Assembly (NCBI GenBank): GCA_021730285.1
Contig: CP082962.1
Span: 3,162,001 to 3,226,000 of the forward strand
Reading direction: 5' to 3'
DNA from: Desulfovibrio sp. JY
GTDB lineage: Bacteria; Desulfobacterota; Desulfovibrionia; Desulfovibrionales; Desulfovibrionaceae
DNA length: 64,000 nucleotides
In this document: positions 6,909-16,244 of the stretch, in pieces
How the letters are laid out: every line of letters begins with the position of its first letter
How positions within the stretch are numbered: the stretch's first letter is position 1
Notes under the pieces: generated by a model
The model's database searches: none
Told to the model about the DNA's origin: nothing
What the model saw: only the letters and a program-made list of their open reading frames with translations
Translations under genes and position numbers: made by a program

Positions 6909-7871
6909 TTATCCGAAATGATCGAAGCCGTTCATGGCGAAGGGCGCGCCGTTGAGCGTATAGCCCGGCTTGCCGCCGACCATGCCGATGGGGTTCGCCC
7001 CGGGGAGGGCGGCGCGCACCGCTTTCCAGCCTTCGGGCGTGGCGCTGGCCACGAGCGCGTAATCCTCGCCGCCGAAAATCGCCTCTTTCTCCGGCTGCCG
7101 GCCATGCCCGGCGGCATAGGCCGTCACCTCGGGATGCAGCAGCCCCGGCGGCAGGAAAAGATCCGCCCCCATGCCCGGCGGCAACAGGCGGGGCAGGTCC
7201 CGGGCCAGGCCGTCGGACACGTCCATGCAGGCCGTGACCCCTGGTATCTCGGCCAGGATGAGCCCCTCTTCCACCCGGGGCGTCGGGCGCAGATGGGCGG
7301 CCACAGCGGCCGGGAAAGACTCCCTCGCGCTGCGTCCGTCTTTTTCCAGCAGAGCCAGTCCCACCCTGGCCAGGCCGATTTCCCCCACAACGAACAAAAT
7401 ATCCCCCGGCTTGGCCGTGCCCCGGGTCAGGAACCGGCCCGACGGCCCGGCCTCGCCCCAGATGGTCACCGTCAGCCCGACCTTGTCGCCCCGGCTCAAA
7501 TCACCACCCACCAGCGGCAACGCATACGCTCCCGCCAGCTCGGCCATGCCCGCCAGGACCTCGTCCCAATACTCCCGGTCGGCCTCGCCAGGACTCACAA
7601 GCCCCAGCACGAACCCCAGCGGCCGCGCGCCCATGGCGGCCACATCGCTTATATTGACGGCCAGCGCCTTGTACCCGACATCCCCGGGCGAAAAGTACGA
7701 GCGCCGGAAATGCACGTCCTCCAAAAAAAGATCTGTGGTGACGCACATCCGGCCGGGACAGGAAATCACCGCCGCGTCGTCGCCGCGCGAAAGCGCCACC
7801 GACTCCCCGCCACGCGGGAAATGCCGGTCGACCAAAGCCAGGAAATCATCCTCGGAGCGTAAATGCGGCAT
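6909..7871 (-). CDS. thiL: thiamine-monophosphate kinase
   Basis: A 320-residue ThiL, which phosphorylates thiamine monophosphate to the active cofactor. Visible family motifs are the metal/ATP sites LSRGDDAAVI, VNISDVAAMGARP, VGGDLSRGD, CMDVSDGLARDL and FGGEDYALV, all in the expected order. Length matches the family (about 320-330). I chose the ATG at 7871; a GTG further out at 7949 would begin inside a palindromic repeat and is unlikely. It heads a thiL-eamA-trmO run. No thiamine riboswitch was recognised upstream, where repeats fill the 435-base gap to the kinase gene. Confidence 0.9.
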   Translation of the reverse strand: MPHLRSEDDFLALVDRHFPRGGESVALSRGDDAAVISCPGRMCVTTDLFLEDVHFRRSYFSPGDVGYKALAVNISDVAAMGARPLGFVLGLVSPGEADREYWDEVLAGMAELAGAYALPLVGGDLSRGDKVGLTVTIWGEAGPSGRFLTRGTAKPGDILFVVGEIGLARVGLALLEKDGRSARESFPAAVAAHLRPTPRVEEGLILAEIPGVTACMDVSDGLARDLPRLLPPGMGADLFLPPGLLHPEVTAYAAGHGRQPEKEAIFGGEDYALVASATPEGWKAVRAALPGANPIGMVGGKPGYTLNGAPFAMNGFDHFG

Positions 7872-7895
7872 GGTGTGGTGTGCGGGGGGGAGGAA

Positions 7896-7970
7896 CCGGG
7901 GGAGGGAACCCCTTTTTGAAAAAAGGGGTTCCCTCCCCCGGACCCCCACCCTCCCGAAAAATTTTAAAGG
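7896..7970 (+). repeat. 3'-end hairpin element (plus orientation)
   Basis: A perfect 22-bp stem (7896-7917 with 7920-7941) with a two-base loop, followed by GGACCCCCACCCTCCCGAAA and a TTTTAAA tract, the tail of this repeat family. No plus-strand gene ends before it. It sits just upstream of thiL and could affect that gene's leader. Confidence 0.7.
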
Positions 7971-8071: not shown

Positions 8072-8280
8072 TTCGCCCCGAAGGGGCGACGGCGTGGTGG
8101 CGGCGGAATTTGCCTGGGACGAGCTTGTCGCGAAGCGACATGCACCGTCCCGACAAATTCCGCCGCCATCTTCCACTCTCCGCCCTCCCGGCAACCCGCG
8201 AAACCTCCGCCCGGCCAAAGCCGAATCGGGGGGTCCGGGGGGCCCGTGGCCTCCCGGTGGGGTCCGGGGCAGAGCCCCGG
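8072..8280 (-). repeat. long structured 3' element, copy 1
   Basis: About 210 bases, ending 26 bases after the stop of the minus-strand PfkB kinase gene. On the plus strand it has a TCGCCCC/GGGGCGA hairpin, a long stem with 14-base perfect arms (8099-8112 and 8154-8167), an inner stem GGGACG/CGTCCC, an apical GTCGC-GAA-GCGAC hairpin, and a final CCGGGGC-AGA-GCCCCGG hairpin. The copy at 14012-14222 has the same architecture with compensating changes in the paired arms. Part of it can be translated, but the sequence behaves as a structure rather than a gene. Confidence 0.8.
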
Positions 8281-8306
8281 CCTATGGGCGGCACCGCTAC
8301 TCTTCG

Positions 8307-9242
8307 CTACGCCAGTTCGCCGAATGTCGCGGCGTAGCGGGCGCGGAATGCGTCCCAGGTGAAGTGGTGTTCCTGGGTGCCGTGTTTTTCCACGGCGTAG
8401 GCGGCGGAGACCGATCCGATTTTTGCGGCGTCCACCGGGGATTTGCCCAGGCACAGGCCTTTGATGAATCCGGCCCGGAAGGCATCGCCCGCGCCGGTCG
8501 GGTCCTGGACATCGGCGACAGGGCAGGGGGCGATGTGGTCTTCCTGCGCGCCCTGGCGGATGGTGGAGCCGTTTTCGCCGAGGGTGGTGATGACGGTCTT
8601 GGCCCGGCCGACGATTTCGGCCAGGGTGAGTTTGGTGGTATTTTCGATCAGTTGCAGCTCGTAGTCGTTGCTGACAAGGTAGTCGGCGCCGGTGAGCATC
8701 TCGGTGAGTTGTTCCCCGGACAGGGCGGTGATGTTCTGGCCGGGGTCGACGATGACGGGGATGCCCTTGGCTTTGCAGATGCGGGGATATTCCTGCATGT
8801 CGTCCAGGTTGCCGGGGGCGGCGATGGCGATGGTGTCGGCCGGGTCGCACTCGGCCACGGGATACTGGGCGCCGTGTTTCATGGCGCCGGGGTTGAAGCC
8901 CGTGATCTGGTTGTCGGAACGGTCGGTGGTGATGTAGGCCCCGGCGGTGAACTCGCTGCCGATGCGGCGGATGCCTTGCAGGGAGAGGCCGCAGTGGCGC
9001 AGCCAGGCTTCGTAGGCGGCGAAGTCCTTGCCGGCGGCGGCTACGATGGTCGGGTCCTCGCCGAGGAGCTTCAGGCAATAGGCGATGTTGCCGGCTGTGC
9101 CGCCGAATTTTTCCTCCAGCCCGTCGACCAGGAAGCAAACGTTGAGAATATGGATTTTGTCGGGCAGGATATGGTCGGCGAAGCTGCCGGGAAAGCTCAT
9201 GATGCGGTCATAGGCCAGGGAGCCCGAGACGAGGATGCGCAT
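8307..9242 (-). CDS. PfkB-family carbohydrate/nucleoside kinase (adenosine-kinase-like)
   Basis: A 311-residue ribokinase-like sugar or nucleoside kinase. The C-terminal signature DPTGAGDAFRAGFIKGL carries the catalytic aspartate and anion hole; the N-terminal GG segment (EKFGGTAGNIAYCLKLLG) matches the substrate-binding motif. The overall pattern is nearest to adenosine-kinase-type members of the PfkB family, but substrate cannot be fixed by eye. AAAGGAG precedes the ATG. It lies 18 bases after cutA and is followed by the long structured element at 8072-8280. Confidence 0.85.
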   Translation of the reverse strand: MRILVSGSLAYDRIMSFPGSFADHILPDKIHILNVCFLVDGLEEKFGGTAGNIAYCLKLLGEDPTIVAAAGKDFAAYEAWLRHCGLSLQGIRRIGSEFTAGAYITTDRSDNQITGFNPGAMKHGAQYPVAECDPADTIAIAAPGNLDDMQEYPRICKAKGIPVIVDPGQNITALSGEQLTEMLTGADYLVSNDYELQLIENTTKLTLAEIVGRAKTVITTLGENGSTIRQGAQEDHIAPCPVADVQDPTGAGDAFRAGFIKGLCLGKSPVDAAKIGSVSAAYAVEKHGTQEHHFTWDAFRARYAATFGELA

Positions 9243-9260
9243 GGGCGGGGTTCTCCTTTA

Positions 9261-9584
9261 TTATGCGATTGGGGCGGTTTCGTCGTCGATCCAGCGCAGA
9301 AATTCCGGCAGCCCGGAGACAATGGGCACCACCACCGCGCAGGGGACCTCGTAGTCGTGCAGTTCCTTGACCCGGGCGGTGAGCGCGTCGGCCAGCTCCA
9401 GGCGGGTTTTGGCGATGAGCACGGTTTCCTCGGCGGTCTCGATGGCGCCCTTCCAGCGGTAGATCGAGCTCATGCCCGGCAGGATGTTGGCGCAGGCGGC
9501 AAGGCGCTCGGTGACCAGGGCGCGTCCGATGGCTGCGGCGGCCTCGGGCGACGGGGCGGTGATGTAGACCATGGCGGCGGACAT
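9261..9584 (-). CDS. cutA: CutA1 divalent-cation tolerance protein
   Basis: A 107-residue CutA, a small trimeric ferredoxin-like-fold protein linked to copper/divalent-metal tolerance. It shows the expected pattern VYITAPSPEAAAAIGRALVTERLAAC-N, then YRWKGAIE and the late YEVPCAVVVPI. GGAGG lies four bases upstream of the ATG. It is the first gene of a two-gene run with the PfkB kinase and is divergent from the DNA glycosylase gene across a 173-base gap. Confidence 0.93.
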   Translation of the reverse strand: MSAAMVYITAPSPEAAAAIGRALVTERLAACANILPGMSSIYRWKGAIETAEETVLIAKTRLELADALTARVKELHDYEVPCAVVVPIVSGLPEFLRWIDDETAPIA

Positions 9585-9757
9585 GGCATCCTCCAGGCCG
9601 GCTGGCGGCGTTACGACATTCGGGCTGATGGCTTACACGAGGGTTATGGCGTTTGCAAAGCCGCCGACAGTGGACCGGAGGCGGATGCGGCGAACATGGA
9701 GATTGCGGCATTGACGGGAGGGCGACGCGTGGGCACGGAAACCGGCCGGTTTGCGGT

Positions 9758-10408
9758 ATGAAGCGGCGGGAACTTTTTTTGGCCATGCACCGGGCCATGC
9801 TCGATGCCCTTGGTCAAAGCGGCTGGTGGCCGGCGGATTCGGCCTTCGAGATGGCGGTGGGTGCGATTTTGACCCAGAACACCAACTGGGCCAACGTGGT
9901 GCGCGCCATCGACACTCTGAAAACCGCGGGCCGGTTTTCGGCCGAGGCGCTCTACGCCCTGCCGGCGGACGAGCTGGCGGAGCTGATCAAGCCGGCGGGC
10001 TATTTCCGGGTCAAGGCGGCCCGGCTGCGAAACCTTCTGGCACTTATCGTGCAAGAACTTGGCGGCGACATCACGACCCTGGCCGAGAGAGGGCTCGATG
10101 CGGCCCGGGAGCGGTTGCTTGCGGTCAAGGGCGTGGGGCCGGAGACGGCGGACAGCATTCTGCTCTACGGTCTTTCGCTGCCGAGCTTCGTTGTCGACAC
10201 CTACACGGCGCGCATCTGCAACCGGCACGCCCTGGCCCCGGAAGACGCGGGATACGAGGAATTGCGGGAACTGTTCATGGACGCCTTGCCCGAGGATACG
10301 GCCTTGTACAATGAATTCCACGCCCTGCTCGTGCGTGTGGGCAACGGCTGGTGCCGGCCGCGCGCGCCGCGTTGCGATACTTGCCCGCTGGGAGCGTTTC
10401 TGCCATGA
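9758..10408 (+). CDS. HhH-GPD DNA glycosylase, MagIII-like
   Basis: A 216-residue base-excision repair enzyme of the endonuclease III superfamily. The helix-hairpin-helix reads LLAVKGVGPETADSILLYG, followed by the catalytic aspartate in VVDTYTARI. The lysine that gives endonuclease III its lyase activity (GVGRKTA) is replaced by glutamate (GVGPETA), the pattern of MagIII-type monofunctional glycosylases that remove alkylated adenine. At the C-terminus only three of the four iron-sulfur cysteines remain (WC...RC..C), so a normal cluster is doubtful. The stop overlaps the next ATG by four bases, suggesting coupled translation with the envC-like gene. Confidence 0.8.
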   Translation: MKRRELFLAMHRAMLDALGQSGWWPADSAFEMAVGAILTQNTNWANVVRAIDTLKTAGRFSAEALYALPADELAELIKPAGYFRVKAARLRNLLALIVQELGGDITTLAERGLDAARERLLAVKGVGPETADSILLYGLSLPSFVVDTYTARICNRHALAPEDAGYEELRELFMDALPEDTALYNEFHALLVRVGNGWCRPRAPRCDTCPLGAFLP

Positions 10409-11217
10409 GGCTGTGGACACTTCTGGTTGCCGTCGTCATCTTTTTGACGACAACCGGATGGGCCGTGGCCCGGGAGTCGACCCGGTCCCATGCCGTCCGG
10501 CCCGCTGGCGCCCGTGACGATGCGGCCCGGGAGGCGGCCAACAGGCGTCAGGCCGCGCTCCTGGCCGCGCTGTGGCCCGGCCGGGTGGCCGTTTTGACCG
10601 GGGAACCCGGTGCCGGCGGGGATTGGGCCGAGGCGGACCGGCTCTATGTATGGATGCGGACGCTTTTCCGGGATGCGGGACTGCCCGGCGCGGCGGCGGC
10701 CCCGGCTTTTTTGCCGCCGGAACTCCTTGCACCGCCGAAGACGTCCGTTCCATCGCCGTCGGCGCGGGCCAAGAGCCTTGCCCCGGTCGATGCGCTGTCG
10801 GAGAACCCTGAGGACGTCCCGGACGTGTTCGCGCCGCCGGAGGGGGGACTTTCCTGGCCGGCGACCGGCCGGGTGGCCGCCGCCTTCGCTCCGGCGGAGA
10901 ATCCGCCACGCCAGGGGCTGGTGTTGGCCGTGCCCGAAGGCACGCCCGTCAAAGCCGCCGCCGCCGGCCGGGTCGTTTTTATCGGAGCGCTCATGGGCCT
11001 TGGCCGGGTGCTTATTTTGTCCCATGGCGGGCGCCGCCACACGGTCTACGCCTGTCTGGAGCGTCTCGATGCGGCCGAGGGGGACATGCTCGCCCAGGGA
11101 ACGGTTCTCGGGCAGGCGGGATATTGCGGCCCCATTCGCAAACCAGGCGTCTATTTCGAATTGCGTTTTCGTGAAAAAGCTCTTAATCCGGCGGAGTGGC
11201 TCGCCGTGAGGCGATAG
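10405..11217 (+). CDS. EnvC-like protein with degenerate LytM/M23 domain
   Basis: A 270-residue exported protein with a signal peptide (residues about 1-21), a proline/alanine-rich linker and a C-terminal LytM (M23-like) domain from about residue 150. Zinc-binding residues are missing: RQGLVLAVP replaces the HxGxD segment, VYACL replaces the usual YAHL, and YFELR replaces the HxH segment, as in EnvC. EnvC-type proteins do not cut cell wall but activate amidases at division. The coiled coil usual in EnvC is short or absent. ctpA and a YibQ-like gene follow, a neighbourhood often seen for envC. Confidence 0.78.
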   Translation: MRLWTLLVAVVIFLTTTGWAVARESTRSHAVRPAGARDDAAREAANRRQAALLAALWPGRVAVLTGEPGAGGDWAEADRLYVWMRTLFRDAGLPGAAAAPAFLPPELLAPPKTSVPSPSARAKSLAPVDALSENPEDVPDVFAPPEGGLSWPATGRVAAAFAPAENPPRQGLVLAVPEGTPVKAAAAGRVVFIGALMGLGRVLILSHGGRRHTVYACLERLDAAEGDMLAQGTVLGQAGYCGPIRKPGVYFELRFREKALNPAEWLAVRR

Positions 11218-11296
11218 GGTCTTTTCGGACGAGAGCGAGGGAAACGGCTGCGCGGGAAATTAAGGGCGCGGCCTGTCATGTTCCGTGGAGGAAGGT

Positions 11297-12583
11297 ATGC
11301 GTCTTTTGACCAAGGTGTCCTGTTCCCTGATCGTCTGCCTGGCCGTCGGCTCCGTTGCCCTGGCCGCCAAGAACGACGAAGACCGCTTTGCCCCGCTCAA
11401 GCGCTTCAGCCAGGTCATGGACCTGGTGGAGAACCATTACGTCAAGCCCGTCACCCGAAACGAACTCATCGACGGGGCCATCGTCGGCATGCTCCAGCAG
11501 CTCGATCCGCACTCCAGCTTCCTGTCCAAGGAAGAATTCAAGGAGATGCAGGTCAGCACTTCGGGCGAATTCGGTGGTATCGGCATCGAGATCAGCATGG
11601 AGAACGGCCGGCTGACCGTCATCTCGCCCATCGACGACACTCCGGCTGATAAAGCCGGCCTCAAGGCCGGTGACGTGATCCTGGAGATCGACGGACAGCC
11701 GACCCAGGACATGACCCTGATCGACGCGGTGCAAAAGATCCGCGGCCCCAAGGGCAAGCCCGTGTCCCTGACCGTCATCCACAAGGACCAGCAAAAGCCC
11801 TTCAAGGTCAGTGTGGTGCGCGACACCATTCCGATCATCAGCGTGAAGAGCAATGAGGTGGAACCCGGCTACCTCTATATCCGTCTCAGCCGCTTCAACG
11901 AAAATACCACCAACGAGCTCAATCAGGCCCTGGTCGATTATAAAAAGGGCGGGAAGCAGCTCAAGGGCGTCATCCTCGATCTGCGCAACAACCCCGGCGG
12001 GCTGTTGGAACAGGCCGTCAACGTCGCGGACGTCTTTTTGCCCTCGGGCCAGATCGTGTCCATCAAGGGCAAGAACGCGGACCAGGAAAAGGTGTTCAGC
12101 GCCAAGGGCGACGGCGCAGATCAGACCTCGCCGCTGGTGGTGCTCATCAACGCCGGCTCAGCCTCGGCCTCGGAAATCGTGGCCGGTGCGCTCAAGGACC
12201 ACAAGCGTGCCTTGCTCGTTGGGGAAAAGACCTTCGGCAAGGGCTCGGTGCAGACCGTCATCCCGCTCTCCGACGGCTCGGGCATCAAGCTGACCACGGC
12301 CTTGTACTACACGCCCAACGGCCGTTCCATCCAGGCCGAGGGCATCGAACCCGACTTCATGGTGCCGCTCCAGGACAATGGCTCGGACGGCGACAAGCTG
12401 GCCGCCAACCACCAGTTCCGGGAGCGCGACCTGTCCCGGCACCTGGAAAACAAGCGCAAGAAAAAGGCCGGGACCTCCGACGATCCCAAGCAGAAGCTGC
12501 TCGAGCAACTTGCCCGGGACAATCAGCTCAAACTCGCTTTGGAACTGGTGAAGTATTTCCCGATCAAGACCTACACGCCCTAG
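11297..12583 (+). CDS. ctpA: carboxyl-terminal processing protease CtpA (S41)
   Basis: A 428-residue exported serine protease. A signal peptide occupies residues 1-24; a PDZ domain lies about 80-170 (GEFGGIGIEI...KAGDVILEIDG); the S41 protease core follows, with the catalytic serine in AGSASASE (286-293) and the catalytic lysine K315 in TFGKGSVQ. Such enzymes trim C-termini of periplasmic proteins and, in several bacteria, control cell-wall hydrolases. The ATG at 11297 directly follows GGAGGAAGG, making it preferable to the GTG at 11285. It sits between envC-like and yibQ-like genes. Confidence 0.93.
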   Translation: MRLLTKVSCSLIVCLAVGSVALAAKNDEDRFAPLKRFSQVMDLVENHYVKPVTRNELIDGAIVGMLQQLDPHSSFLSKEEFKEMQVSTSGEFGGIGIEISMENGRLTVISPIDDTPADKAGLKAGDVILEIDGQPTQDMTLIDAVQKIRGPKGKPVSLTVIHKDQQKPFKVSVVRDTIPIISVKSNEVEPGYLYIRLSRFNENTTNELNQALVDYKKGGKQLKGVILDLRNNPGGLLEQAVNVADVFLPSGQIVSIKGKNADQEKVFSAKGDGADQTSPLVVLINAGSASASEIVAGALKDHKRALLVGEKTFGKGSVQTVIPLSDGSGIKLTTALYYTPNGRSIQAEGIEPDFMVPLQDNGSDGDKLAANHQFRERDLSRHLENKRKKKAGTSDDPKQKLLEQLARDNQLKLALELVKYFPIKTYTP

Positions 12584-12608
12584 CACGCGCAAGCAGAAAT
12601 CGGCTTCC

Positions 12609-13745
12609 ATGAAACCCGCCAAGGGGCCGGGGAAAGCTCCGGCGCGCTCCAAGGCCGGGGGGAAACGAAAAGTCGTTCTCCCCGGCCGACCTTATCTCGC
12701 GGTCATTGCCGGGCTGGTCCTGGCCGTGTCCCTGGGCGTGCTGGCCATGCTGCTTTTCGGGCCATTCCCGCCGCTGCCGGCGGACCATGCCGTTCGGAGA
12801 GCCAAGGTCGGACACGTCCGCCAGCCCGCGACTGCCGCCGCTGCCGTAACGCAGCGCCAGCCGTCCAAGCCCGTCCGGGAGCAGGCCGTGGCCCATGCCG
12901 CCCGCCCGGCCGCGTTGCCTTTCGAGGAACATCTGCCCGGTACGGACGCGTCTCCCGACGGTTCGCAGATGCGGGCCAAGGTCGAACCGGCCGCTCCGGC
13001 CACATCGGCAACGCCCCTGACGCCTCCGGCCACCGGGCCCACGACGCCATCTCCTGCCACGCCCGAGGAAACCGCCAAGGGGCCGCGCATGGTGGTGGTC
13101 ATCGACGACATCGGCGACAATCCGGCCATGGCCAGAAAAATCATGGAACTGCCGTTCCCCGTGACCCTGGCCATCCTGCCCGACCGACCGCACACCCGTT
13201 CCCTGGCGGCCGAGATCACCGCCCACGGCAACGAAACCATCCTGCACCAGCCCATGCAGCCGATCTCCTACCCCCGGGTCAATCCCGGCCCGGGAGCGCT
13301 TTTCACAGACATGGACACCCGGCGCATCCAGGACACCGTGTCCGAAAACATCGCCCAGCTGCCGCATATCGTCGGCATCAACAACCATATGGGCTCGGCC
13401 TTCACCAGCGATCAGGCCGGCATGGACGCCGTCATGCCCGTGCTCAAGGCCCATGGCCTCTTTTTCATGGACTCCGTCACCTCGCCCACCAGCGCCGCCG
13501 CCGCCGCCGCCCGCAAAGCCGGCGTGCACTACTACCGGCGGGCCGTCTTCCTCGATAACGTCCGCAATGTCCGCACCATCCTCGGCCAACTCAAAACCGC
13601 CGAGCGCCACGCCCTCAAACACGGCCACGCCATAGCCATCGGCCACCCCTACAACGAAACCTACGAAGCCTTGCTCCTCTGGGCCAAGGAACGCGATCCC
13701 CACGTCACCCTTGTTACGTTGACCGAACTCGGCCCCGAGTTTTAG
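12609..13745 (+). CDS. divergent polysaccharide deacetylase (YibQ family)
   Basis: A 378-residue protein with a cytoplasmic basic N-terminus, one membrane segment (about 30-55), a long proline/alanine-rich linker (about 65-155), and a C-terminal YibQ-type domain beginning at GPRMVVVIDDIGDN. Family motifs include LPFPVTLAILPDRPHT, the ETILHQPMQP segment and GINNHMGSAFT. The fold is related to polysaccharide deacetylases, so a role in modifying envelope glycans is possible, but activity is unproven. It follows ctpA by 25 bases and ends just before a 3' hairpin element. Confidence 0.85.
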   Translation: MKPAKGPGKAPARSKAGGKRKVVLPGRPYLAVIAGLVLAVSLGVLAMLLFGPFPPLPADHAVRRAKVGHVRQPATAAAAVTQRQPSKPVREQAVAHAARPAALPFEEHLPGTDASPDGSQMRAKVEPAAPATSATPLTPPATGPTTPSPATPEETAKGPRMVVVIDDIGDNPAMARKIMELPFPVTLAILPDRPHTRSLAAEITAHGNETILHQPMQPISYPRVNPGPGALFTDMDTRRIQDTVSENIAQLPHIVGINNHMGSAFTSDQAGMDAVMPVLKAHGLFFMDSVTSPTSAAAAAARKAGVHYYRRAVFLDNVRNVRTILGQLKTAERHALKHGHAIAIGHPYNETYEALLLWAKERDPHVTLVTLTELGPEF

Positions 13746-13756
13746 GCGGCATGCGG

Positions 13757-13830
13757 CCTCCGGCGGCCAGGGAGGCTCTGCCTCCCCTGGACCCCACCGC
13801 CGGGGGACTTGATGTCCCCCGGACCCCCTT
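13757..13830 (+). repeat. 3'-end hairpin element after the yibQ-like gene
   Basis: It begins 11 bases after the stop codon with CCTCCGGCGGCCAGG, then a stem with core GGGAGGC-TCT-GCCTCCC, then GGACCCCACCGCCGGGGG, a second hairpin (GGGGGACTTGATGTCCCCC) and GGACCCCC. The copy at 45000-45075 has the same order of parts. Confidence 0.75.
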
Positions 13831-13888
13831 TTACCGGGTTGGGATGGTGGGTGGCGGTGAAGTCGGGGGAGGACGGGACGAGGGATGT

Positions 13889-13959
13889 TTGTCGCCGCAA
13901 TCGGCCCGGCGGCACGAGGGGCTTTCGCCCCTCGACGCCGGACGCGATTGCGGCAACAA
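13889..13959. repeat. 71-base composite inverted repeat
   Basis: Outer arms 13889-13903 and 13945-13959 pair at 14 of 15 positions. Inside are CCGGCG (13906-13911) with CGCCGG (13936-13941), and CGAGGGG (13915-13921) with CCCCTCG (13928-13934). It sits in the 501-base gap between the converging yibQ-like and acyltransferase genes, between two hairpin elements. No protein-coding signal is evident. Confidence 0.7.
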
Positions 13960-14011
13960 CCGCGCCAGCGGCGAAGCGCCGCATTTTAAGAAGAAGATAG
14001 TTCTCCGAATG

Positions 14012-14222
14012 TCGCCCCCTTGGGGCGACCGGCGTGGTGGAGGCGGAATTTGCTTGGGACGAGCCTGCCGCGAAGCGGCGGCATCGTCCCGACAAATTCC
14101 GCCTCCATCTTCCCCCAACCGCCTGACCGTTTCTCCGTCAAAGTCCCGCCCAGCCAAAGCCGAGAAGGGGGGCCCGGGGGGCCCATGGCCTCCCGGCGGG
14201 GGGGCGGGGGCAGAGCCCCCGC
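14012..14222 (-). repeat. long structured 3' element, copy 2
   Basis: About 211 bases, ending 24 bases after the stop of the minus-strand acyltransferase gene. Same order of stems as copy 1: TCGCCCC/GGGGCGA, long stem 14039-14052 with 14093-14106, inner GGGACGA/TCGTCCC, apical GCCGC-GAA-GCGGC, and a terminal GCGGGGGC-AGA-GCCCCCGC hairpin. Differences from copy 1 fall as matching pairs in opposite arms, which supports a conserved fold. Confidence 0.8.
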
Positions 14223-14246: not shown

Positions 14247-15347
14247 CTACCCCCTGCCGCGGCCGCGTGCTTCGAAGGCGGCCACGAGCTTGTCCTGGTA
14301 GCGGGCCAGGATGGCGGCCAGGGGCAGGCTTATGGCGGCGAGCAGGCACAGGGCGACAAAGGGGCGCATGTGGGGGCGCAGGAGGTCCGCGCCGTAGCCG
14401 AGGATGGGCTGGTGGAGCAGGTAGAAGCTGTAGGAGGCGGCGGCCGCGGCGGCGATGCGGGGCTTGGCGCCGAGTCGGGCCATGGCGGGCCAGGCGAAGA
14501 GCGAGCCGGCCACGCCGATGCAGGCGGCGACGAGGAGGATATGGGCAAGGGGTATGGGTAGGGCGGTTTTGAAGAGGATGGCCAGGGGCAGGCAGAAGTA
14601 GGCCAGTGCGGCGAATCCCATGCGCCAGGAGGCGGGGACGCCGGTGGGGTCGTCGCCGGAGAGGAGCGCGGCCCGGGGCTTCCAGGCCAGGGCGAAGGCC
14701 ATGCCCAGGGCGAATTCCGGCAGGCGGTAGGGCAGGTTGAAGTAGAGCATGTAGTCGAGCAGGGCGGCGGTGCCGCTTATTTTGGCCAGAAGGGACAGCA
14801 GCAGCCACAGGCCCCAGCCGAAGGCCAGGCAGGAGATGAGGGCGCGTTTGGTGCCGAGCTTGCGGAAAAGGCGCAGCAGCAAGGGGTAGGTCAGGTAGAA
14901 CTGGGCGAGCAGCCCCATCCACCATAGGGCGGGCTCCAGGCAGAAGAAGCGGGCCGGGTCGAAGGTCTGGGCGAAGATGATTTTTTCGCCCACGCAGGCG
15001 GCCAGGGCGGCGAAGGGCATGGTCCCGGCGACAAGGGCGACGAGGCTCCACAGGGCCAGGGACAGGTAGTATTGGGGCACGATGCGGCCGAAGCGGCGCA
15101 GGAAGAAGTCGCGATAGCGCATGGGCGGCTTGCCGCCGGGATCGGCGTGGGGCAGGGTGAGGACGAAACCGGTGATGGCGTTGAAGACCACGACGCCGAG
15201 GTAACCCTGGCTCAGGACGTCGCCGAGGATGGGGCCGAAGGGGTTTTGGGCGCCTGCGTCGGGCAGCACGGTCCACAGGTGGTAGAAGAAGATGCCGGCC
15301 ATGGCCAGGACCCGGATGCTTTCGATCTGGGTGACGCGCCGCTGCAT
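14247..15347 (-). CDS. acyltransferase family 3 membrane protein
   Basis: A 366-residue integral membrane protein of the acyltransferase-3 family (OafA/NodX-like), which adds acetyl or other acyl groups to surface glycans or lipids. Typical features are the N-terminal IESIRVLAMAGIFFYHLW with the family's histidine after the first hydrophobic stretch, DFFLRRFGRIVPQYYLSL soon after, and about ten membrane segments. AAAGGAG lies six bases before the ATG at 15347. It is divergent from the MBL-fold gene and faces the yibQ-like gene across a repeat-filled gap. The acceptor substrate is unknown. Confidence 0.85.
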   Translation of the reverse strand: MQRRVTQIESIRVLAMAGIFFYHLWTVLPDAGAQNPFGPILGDVLSQGYLGVVVFNAITGFVLTLPHADPGGKPPMRYRDFFLRRFGRIVPQYYLSLALWSLVALVAGTMPFAALAACVGEKIIFAQTFDPARFFCLEPALWWMGLLAQFYLTYPLLLRLFRKLGTKRALISCLAFGWGLWLLLSLLAKISGTAALLDYMLYFNLPYRLPEFALGMAFALAWKPRAALLSGDDPTGVPASWRMGFAALAYFCLPLAILFKTALPIPLAHILLVAACIGVAGSLFAWPAMARLGAKPRIAAAAAASYSFYLLHQPILGYGADLLRPHMRPFVALCLLAAISLPLAAILARYQDKLVAAFEARGRGRG

Positions 15348-15449
15348 GGGAGCTCCTTTCGTGGTCATGGTTATGCGTGGCGGGCAAAAGGGGTAGCCAA
15401 GTCGGGAACTTGGCGGAAATGCGGCCTTTTCGCAAGAGAGGAGTCGGGG

Positions 15450-16244
15450 ATGCGGGTGACGTTTGTCGGTGTGGGCGAGGCTTTCGACGAGCGGTTTCCC
15501 AACACGAGCCTGTTGGTGGAAGGCGCGGGCGCGGATGGGCCGCGCACGGTCCTTCTGGATTGCGGTTTCACGGCGGCGGCCGCGTTTTTCGGTTGCGGGG
15601 CGTTGCCGGCGGCGCTTCGGGAGCGGGGCCCGGACGCGATCTGGATCTCCCATTTCCATGGCGACCATTATTTCGGCCTGCCGTATGCGTTGACGCGCTG
15701 GCACGAGCAGGGGCGTCGCGAACCGCTCGCGGTCTATGGCGGCGAGGGGATGGCGGAAAAGCTCGCGGCCCTGGTGGACATGGCTTATCCGAATGTGCGG
15801 GGAAAGCTCACGTATCCGTTGCAGGCCGTGGCCGTATCCGACGGCGAGGCGTTTTCACTGGCCGGTATCCCGGCCCGGGCGGCGCTGACCGGGCATGGCG
15901 CGCCGTGTCTGGCCTTGCGCTTGGAAACGGTGGACGGCGGGCTCTATTACAGCGGCGACGGCGCGCCGACCGAGGCGTGTGGGGAATTGGCCCGTGGCTG
16001 CGGGCTTGTCGTGCAGGAGGCGTATGGCATCGCGGCCGGCATTCCCGGTCACGGCTCCGTCGCGCAGGCGATCGAACTGGCGCGTGAGGCCGGGGCCGGG
16101 GCGTTGGCCGTTGTCCATGTGCGCCGGGAAGTGCGCCGGGACCAAAGCGAGGCTATCCGGCGGATGCTCGGGGAGTGCGACATGAGGGCAATGATGCCCG
16201 AGCCCGGGGACGTCCTGCCGGGTGGTCAGCGCGAGGCGCTGTAA
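15450..16244 (+). CDS. MBL-fold metallohydrolase (RNase Z-like)
   Basis: A 264-residue metallo-beta-lactamase-fold hydrolase. The metal-binding HxHxDH motif is SHFHGDHYFG; a later aspartate is in YYSGDGAPT, and the final histidines occur in IPGHGSV and AVVHVRRE. The N-terminus MRVTFVGVGEAFDERFPNTS resembles RNase Z/arylsulfatase-type members, which act on RNA ends or sulfate and phosphate esters; substrate is not predictable here. GAGAGGAG precedes the ATG. Its last 19 bases overlap the 3' end of the convergent L,D-transpeptidase gene. Confidence 0.82.
   Translation: MRVTFVGVGEAFDERFPNTSLLVEGAGADGPRTVLLDCGFTAAAAFFGCGALPAALRERGPDAIWISHFHGDHYFGLPYALTRWHEQGRREPLAVYGGEGMAEKLAALVDMAYPNVRGKLTYPLQAVAVSDGEAFSLAGIPARAALTGHGAPCLALRLETVDGGLYYSGDGAPTEACGELARGCGLVVQEAYGIAAGIPGHGSVAQAIELAREAGAGALAVVHVRREVRRDQSEAIRRMLGECDMRAMMPEPGDVLPGGQREAL

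Follow-up and report, generated by a model that had tools for sequence, protein, structure and literature searches.

A family of interspersed palindromes in the 3' flanks of genes of Desulfovibrio sp. JY and its relatives, with stem arms possibly homogenised at the DNA level

The window, a stretch of 64,000 nucleotides of the genome of Desulfovibrio sp. JY, contains two copies of a repeat unit of approximately 210 bp, both on the minus strand. Copy a (8072 to 8282) lies behind a gene for a pfkB-family carbohydrate kinase (8307 to 9242, minus strand), the 3' end of which points towards it, with a gene of the AIR synthase family (6909 to 7871 with its predicted start, minus strand; thiL-like, a putative name) on its far side. 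Copy b (14009 to 14222) is situated between convergent genes, namely an acyltransferase gene (14247 to 15704, minus strand), whose 3' end is directed towards the repeat, and a gene for a divergent polysaccharide deacetylase (12609 to 13745, plus strand). All four genes were identified with Pfam.

Read in the direction of the neighbouring gene, the unit is a fixed array of T hairpins, a linker, a core palindrome of 71 bp and a hairpin named H1. The T module of copy a (8235 to 8280, with hairpins at approximately 8235-8257 and 8264-8280) adjoins the stop of the pfkB-family gene; the core palindrome is found at 8098 to 8168 (outer arms 8098-8112 and 8154-8168, plus-strand apical loop GAA at 8132-8134) and H1 at 8073 to 8089 (TCGCCCC-GAA-GGGGCGA). 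The corresponding elements of copy b are a T module at 14173 to 14222 (hairpins at approximately 14173-14196 and 14204-14222), a core at 14038 to 14107 (outer arms 14038-14052 and 14093-14107, plus-strand loop GAA at 14072-14074) and H1 at 14011 to 14029 (GTCGCCCC-CTT-GGGGCGAC). The H1 hairpin is preceded by the sequence CGTC, but the TC of this motif is paired.

A preliminary description of this DNA had placed two repeats at these positions, and their alignment from end to end (80% identity, E 2e-49) confirms them. The gaps that it gave to the stops of the minus-strand genes were correct (ORF ends at 8307 and 14247, repeat ends at approximately 8280 and 14222), both of these genes are real as judged by Pfam, and the position in the 3' flank is borne out. 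The paired changes that it described between the copies are also present, with TGGCGGCGG/CCGCCGCCA replaced by TGGAGGCGG/CCGCCTCCA in the long stem, GTCGC-GAA-GCGAC by GCCGC-GAA-GCGGC in the apical hairpin and CCGGGGC-AGA-GCCCCGG by GCGGGGGC-AGA-GCCCCCGC in the terminal hairpin.

The convergent gap at copy b additionally contains a T module belonging to the plus-strand gene (13768 to 13826, plus strand) and a palindrome of a second family, Z (13889 to 13959, plus strand; 15-bp arms and a 41-nt spacer), followed by a small hairpin, H2 (13968 to 13982; GCGGCG-AAG-CGCCGC). This Z palindrome, which neighbours copy b and comes after it on the minus strand, was missed in the preliminary description. 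A further long palindrome with arms that are 88% complementary and an A/T tract mid-way was observed at 7886 to 7951, just before the thiL-like gene, and palindromes resembling it come after several Z copies.

The initial observation was right and understated, as the window copies are two of at least 44 in the genome of 4.69 Mb. At least 40 full copies were found with BLAST, two more by a pattern search (giving 42) and two weaker ones with a covariance model of the core (R1); four other pattern matches (L071-L074) proved not to be copies. As judged by its relatives, the genome belongs to the genus Solidesulfovibrio. Using the covariance model, the core hairpin was detected in 13 of 14 genomes of this genus, that of JY included (the one lacking a match being G012), and in none of 26 genomes of other genera; 75 core matches were in eleven other species. 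When each GTDB species was represented by a single genome and scanned for the motif, carriers were identified in Solidesulfovibrio (S. alcoholivorans, S. aerotolerans and a bin) and in two genomes named Desulfovibrio sp. Motif matches outside the genus, in Salinicola, Verrucomicrobiia and Streptomyces, were taken to be chance, the model giving 33.5 bits, 27.8 bits and nothing, respectively; the Salinicola match has an E of 1e-5, but had been picked beforehand by motif.

A motif search of viral contigs and a blastn search of plasmid and phage records yielded no member of the family, and no Rfam 15 family matched within the window at its gathering score. The Y1/RAYT transposase family PF01797 had no match in the JY genome (G000), while matches were present in 8 of the 14 genomes of the genus. 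The T-hairpin part alone has matches that are common across the genus and that also occur in G018, a genome of another genus of the same family. Several draft contigs of G009, G001 and G011 start or stop in or beside repeats, which look like assembly break points. A literature search for repeats, palindromes or hairpins of Desulfovibrio, Solidesulfovibrio or convergent genes, whose scope included Desulfo- terms in the RepRanger paper and in a 2026 hairpin survey, gave no paper on the family among those listed.

The gene context of the copies was counted using gene calls from a home-made codon model, with a Pfam check covering five genes of the window; some copies had a gene call on one side only, and 19 of the 75 copies in other species had none downstream. 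A gene on the sense strand was found upstream of 36 of 42 JY copies, 35 of 40 copies of the nearest species (G011) and 65 of 75 others. Convergent gaps contain 26 of the 42 JY copies and co-directional gaps the other 16, with divergent gaps, in which promoter faces promoter, containing 0/42, 0/40 and 1/75 in the same three sets. The convergent share of 26/42 compares with 3 of 16 window gaps of at least 150 nt (Fisher p 0.007). T hairpins are found directly behind stop codons. The two halves of the contig gave no sign of a bias with respect to the replication strand (10 plus and 13 minus, 11 plus and 10 minus), no even spacing of the copies was evident (CV 1.19 against 0.97 at random, p 0.06), and a consensus scan identified no terminator-like site, consisting of a GC stem with a T run, inside copy a or b.

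The Z family comprises at least 40 copies in the JY genome, also behind genes, with 15-bp arms and a spacer of approximately 41 nt, then H2. Among the 44 core and 40 Z places, neighbours within 600 bp were core with Z in 21 cases, and in no case core with core or Z with Z (p 5e-7 if the types paired randomly in equal parts). The absence of neighbours of like type is probably due to the instability of the long inverted repeat that two such palindromes would make up if they stood opposite one another.

Comparison with G011 showed that 40 of the 44 JY copies occupy the same site in the same orientation, with flanks that are mostly 82-97% identical. Identity of the element was 84% between the 40 orthologs and 76% between 120 sampled non-orthologous pairs (L257, L263 and L271, which have no parsable core, being left out of the ortholog comparison), which indicates that the copies have been inherited but partly homogenised. 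Orthologous sites are occupied in several species with stems that are species-specific, for example at L008 and L012. G011 possesses 52 copies, twelve of which are without a partner in JY; ten of their flanks were searched for and eight located in the JY genome, where none has a full core and one has a shortened palindrome. At another of the eight, L328, the JY flank continues into different DNA downstream and is not a clean empty site. The JY site L327 (approximately 1836-1879) has a shortened core with its inner hairpin replaced by CCATGG, the G011 counterpart being full. At the site of copy a, the gene could be placed in 12 other genomes, of which only G011 has the core, the contig of G009 stopping 110 nt past the stop codon. 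This presence and absence at orthologous sites implies that whole composites are gained or lost. No target duplication was recognised by eye among the compared sites listed. T modules flank some of the convergent composites in inverse orientation.

As two copies alone cannot show covariation, the at least 44 copies of JY and the 75 matches in other species were used. Alignment A4 contained 41 of the 42 JY copies found first (L068, which has no H1, was omitted), and alignment A5 contained 34 of the 75 other-species matches, these being the higher scoring ones near 75 nt in length, aligned by sequence. In A4, 98.9% of cells were paired and both sides had changed at 8 of 36 stem pairs, and doubly changed cells numbered 63, where shuffles gave 20.6; in A5, 96.8% of cells were paired and both sides had changed at 16 of 31 stem pairs, with 94 doubly changed cells against 26.2. 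None of 500 shuffles reached either count. For another of the five covariation measures, which counts further pair types, 12 of 500 shuffles of A4 attained the observed value. Under a null that redistributes substitutions along the tree, three pairs were significant in A4 and two in A5, so that only five pairs reached significance out of 67 stem pairs in the two alignments; all five were stem pairs, and no off-structure pair was significant in either alignment. Covariation across further genomic copies, the check proposed in the preliminary description, is significant. The matching base changes are real, yet give the impression of being maintained at the level of DNA rather than selected in RNA.

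This was suggested by the type of the mismatches. With A5 pairs 20-61 and 21-60 excluded, A4 and A5 together contained 2,292 Watson-Crick cells; of the imperfect pairs, 17 were A·C, 7 were G·T and 16 were of other kinds. In the control, RNase P RNA of 13 genomes of the genus, there were 21 G·T against 5 A·C at pairs with a Watson-Crick majority (Fisher p 0.0005 for the difference from the repeat), although the structure of the control had itself been derived by prediction from these sequences, which biases it towards G·U relative to A·C. Looser counts (25 G·T against 77 A·C, and 39 against 37) were set aside, as they had been contaminated by conserved mismatch positions and by sequences out of register. 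G003 has two RNase P RNA matches of equal score (G003:C3:266680 and 402274). Within the 15-bp outer stem, 39 ortholog pairs of JY and G011 showed 20 double changes from one Watson-Crick pair to another and 20 single changes, or 26 and 23 with inclusion of a poorly registered 40th pair (L064/L269). Of the single changes between the 39 pairs, 8 were G·T, 5 were A·C and 7 were of other kinds; as evidence on wobble pairing, these are neutral for a DNA reading or weigh slightly against it.

Larger rearrangements and the loops were also compared. The inner segment of the G011 copy L117 is inverted relative to its JY ortholog L026, the only clear inversion, and the whole apical cassette differs in 6 of 40 ortholog pairs (L004, L005, L009, L012, L029 and L059). 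Template switching has been reported to homogenise arms and to invert spacers (PMC8604942), and it can create compensatory changes at once (PMC8794818). Of 138 apical loops that were parsed, read on the plus strand of the window, 135 were GNA or GNNA; the loops come from related copies and so are not independent, and 33 of the 75 genus loops were not parsed. GNA and GNNA loops form very stable mini-hairpins in DNA (PMC4686876), and 24 of 39 apical tetraloops were GNYA, which lies outside the GNRA rule of RNA. A UNCG tetraloop was considered for H1 and rejected, as it fits only 40 of 79 parsed loops (JY, G011 and other loci).

Interspersed palindromic repeats are a known kind of element, of which the paired composite described here and its evolution represent a new form. 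ERIC/IRU and NEMIS-type repeats are imperfect palindromes of a hundred-odd bp in the intergenic DNA of one clade, and the present family, likened to them by description only, is similar in build but belongs to a different clade. MITEs are recognised by terminal inverted repeats and a target-site duplication, and integron attC sites by RYYYAAC/GTTRRRY core sites and an integrase. REP and REPIN elements, tagged with GTAG or CGTC and associated with RAYT, are like this family dispersed extragenic palindromes that lie mostly behind genes. However, their unit is 20-40 bp, in contrast to a 71-bp palindrome in a fixed array of about 210 bp, their tag is unpaired whereas the TC of the CGTC here is paired, and a transposase is present in the genome whereas no Y1 transposase was found here; unlike REP/REPIN, the family also has sites common to different species. 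A CGTC class of REP without a dedicated transposase has been reported (PMC3733652), and the main text of that REP/RAYT paper makes no mention of Desulfovibrio. RNA hairpins shaped by template switching (PMC8794818) show the same simultaneous compensatory changes and loop inversion, though these are in RNA genes such as rRNA and the present repeats are known from DNA alone. Many copies have CGCGAAGCG at the tip of the core, as read on the plus strand of the window, and so resemble the d(GCGAAGC) mini-hairpins, which have been described for synthetic DNA (PMC4686876); a natural role for such a tip here would be conjectural.

The covariation could be explained by a structured 3'-UTR RNA, in which transcription continues from the gene into the repeat and selection acts on the folded transcript, for example because it protects the mRNA end or binds a protein. 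The gene-sense orientation (36/42 JY and 65/75 other copies), the near absence of copies from divergent gaps (0/42 and 1/75) and covariation above the phylogenetic null with no significant off-structure pair argue for this, but the imperfect pairs have no G·U excess, the stems are of 15-23 near-perfect pairs, the apical tetraloops are mostly GNYA, one ortholog carries an inverted inner segment and Rfam families are absent from the window. This explanation is rather unlikely. The preliminary description had taken the paired changes as a mark of selection on a fold; as an inference of selection on a folded RNA, this is not supported by the mismatch types, the equal numbers of double and single changes and the one inverted segment; of its suggestion of an undescribed structured RNA, the absence of an Rfam match in the window stands and RNA selection is not supported.

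Its other suggestion, a mobile DNA hairpin element, is the nearer reading, except that recent movement looks limited, since 40 of 44 sites are common with G011, and that the JY genome has no Y1 transposase. An active, non-autonomous element dependent on a transposase acting in trans, whether HUH/Y1 (RAYT-like) or another, would agree with the 44 copies found in JY and 52 in G011, with the eight located JY loci without a full core and with the restriction of the site a core to G011; the shared sites, the absence of PF01797 from this genome (present in 8/14 of the genus), the lack of members among plasmid and phage records or viral contigs and the lack of a target duplication recognised by eye among the compared sites listed make present activity improbable. 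Least probable is a role as a transcription terminator or as a boundary between convergent genes, for which the convergent excess (26/42 against 3/16 window gaps of at least 150 nt) and the T hairpins right behind stop codons would speak, as neither repeat contains a terminator-like site by consensus scan and 16 of 42 JY copies lie between co-directional genes.

With moderate confidence, we favour a genus-restricted, REP-like family of interspersed palindromes in gene 3' flanks, the arms of which are homogenised by template switching and gene conversion. This reading starts from the observed copy number, conserved order and sites, covariation and species-specific stems, from which we infer template switching and retention in 3' flanks. 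The palindrome would fold while replication leaves the region single-stranded at the fork, where the polymerase may sometimes copy one arm from the other, and copies would also exchange sequence by gene conversion. Both processes would leave the arms Watson-Crick perfect and the copies of one species alike without selection on RNA. The original spread would have needed some mobility, which may now be weak or gone. The 3' flanks may retain the copies or simply tolerate them; transcripts of the copies would include stable hairpins, which could impede read-through between convergent genes or shield mRNA ends. The orientation tied to the neighbouring gene is a point against homogenised DNA palindromes, as a passive DNA repeat need not show such a link; the small mismatch numbers are another, and the fixed architecture across the genus suggests selection of some kind.

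A more speculative possibility, which we regard as unlikely, is that paired core and Z DNA hairpins, oriented by the gene, mark gene ends, being read in trans when single-stranded through their GNA/GNNA tips and rewritten in concert throughout a species. If this were true, every species would have stems of its own at the sites it inherited. As a rule, the neighbours found in convergent gaps belong to two different types. In this family, strong covariation, which is normally taken as proof that an RNA fold is functional, occurs in nature alongside signs of arm homogenisation at the DNA level, and dozens of paired orthologs are available for measuring how compensatory changes arise.
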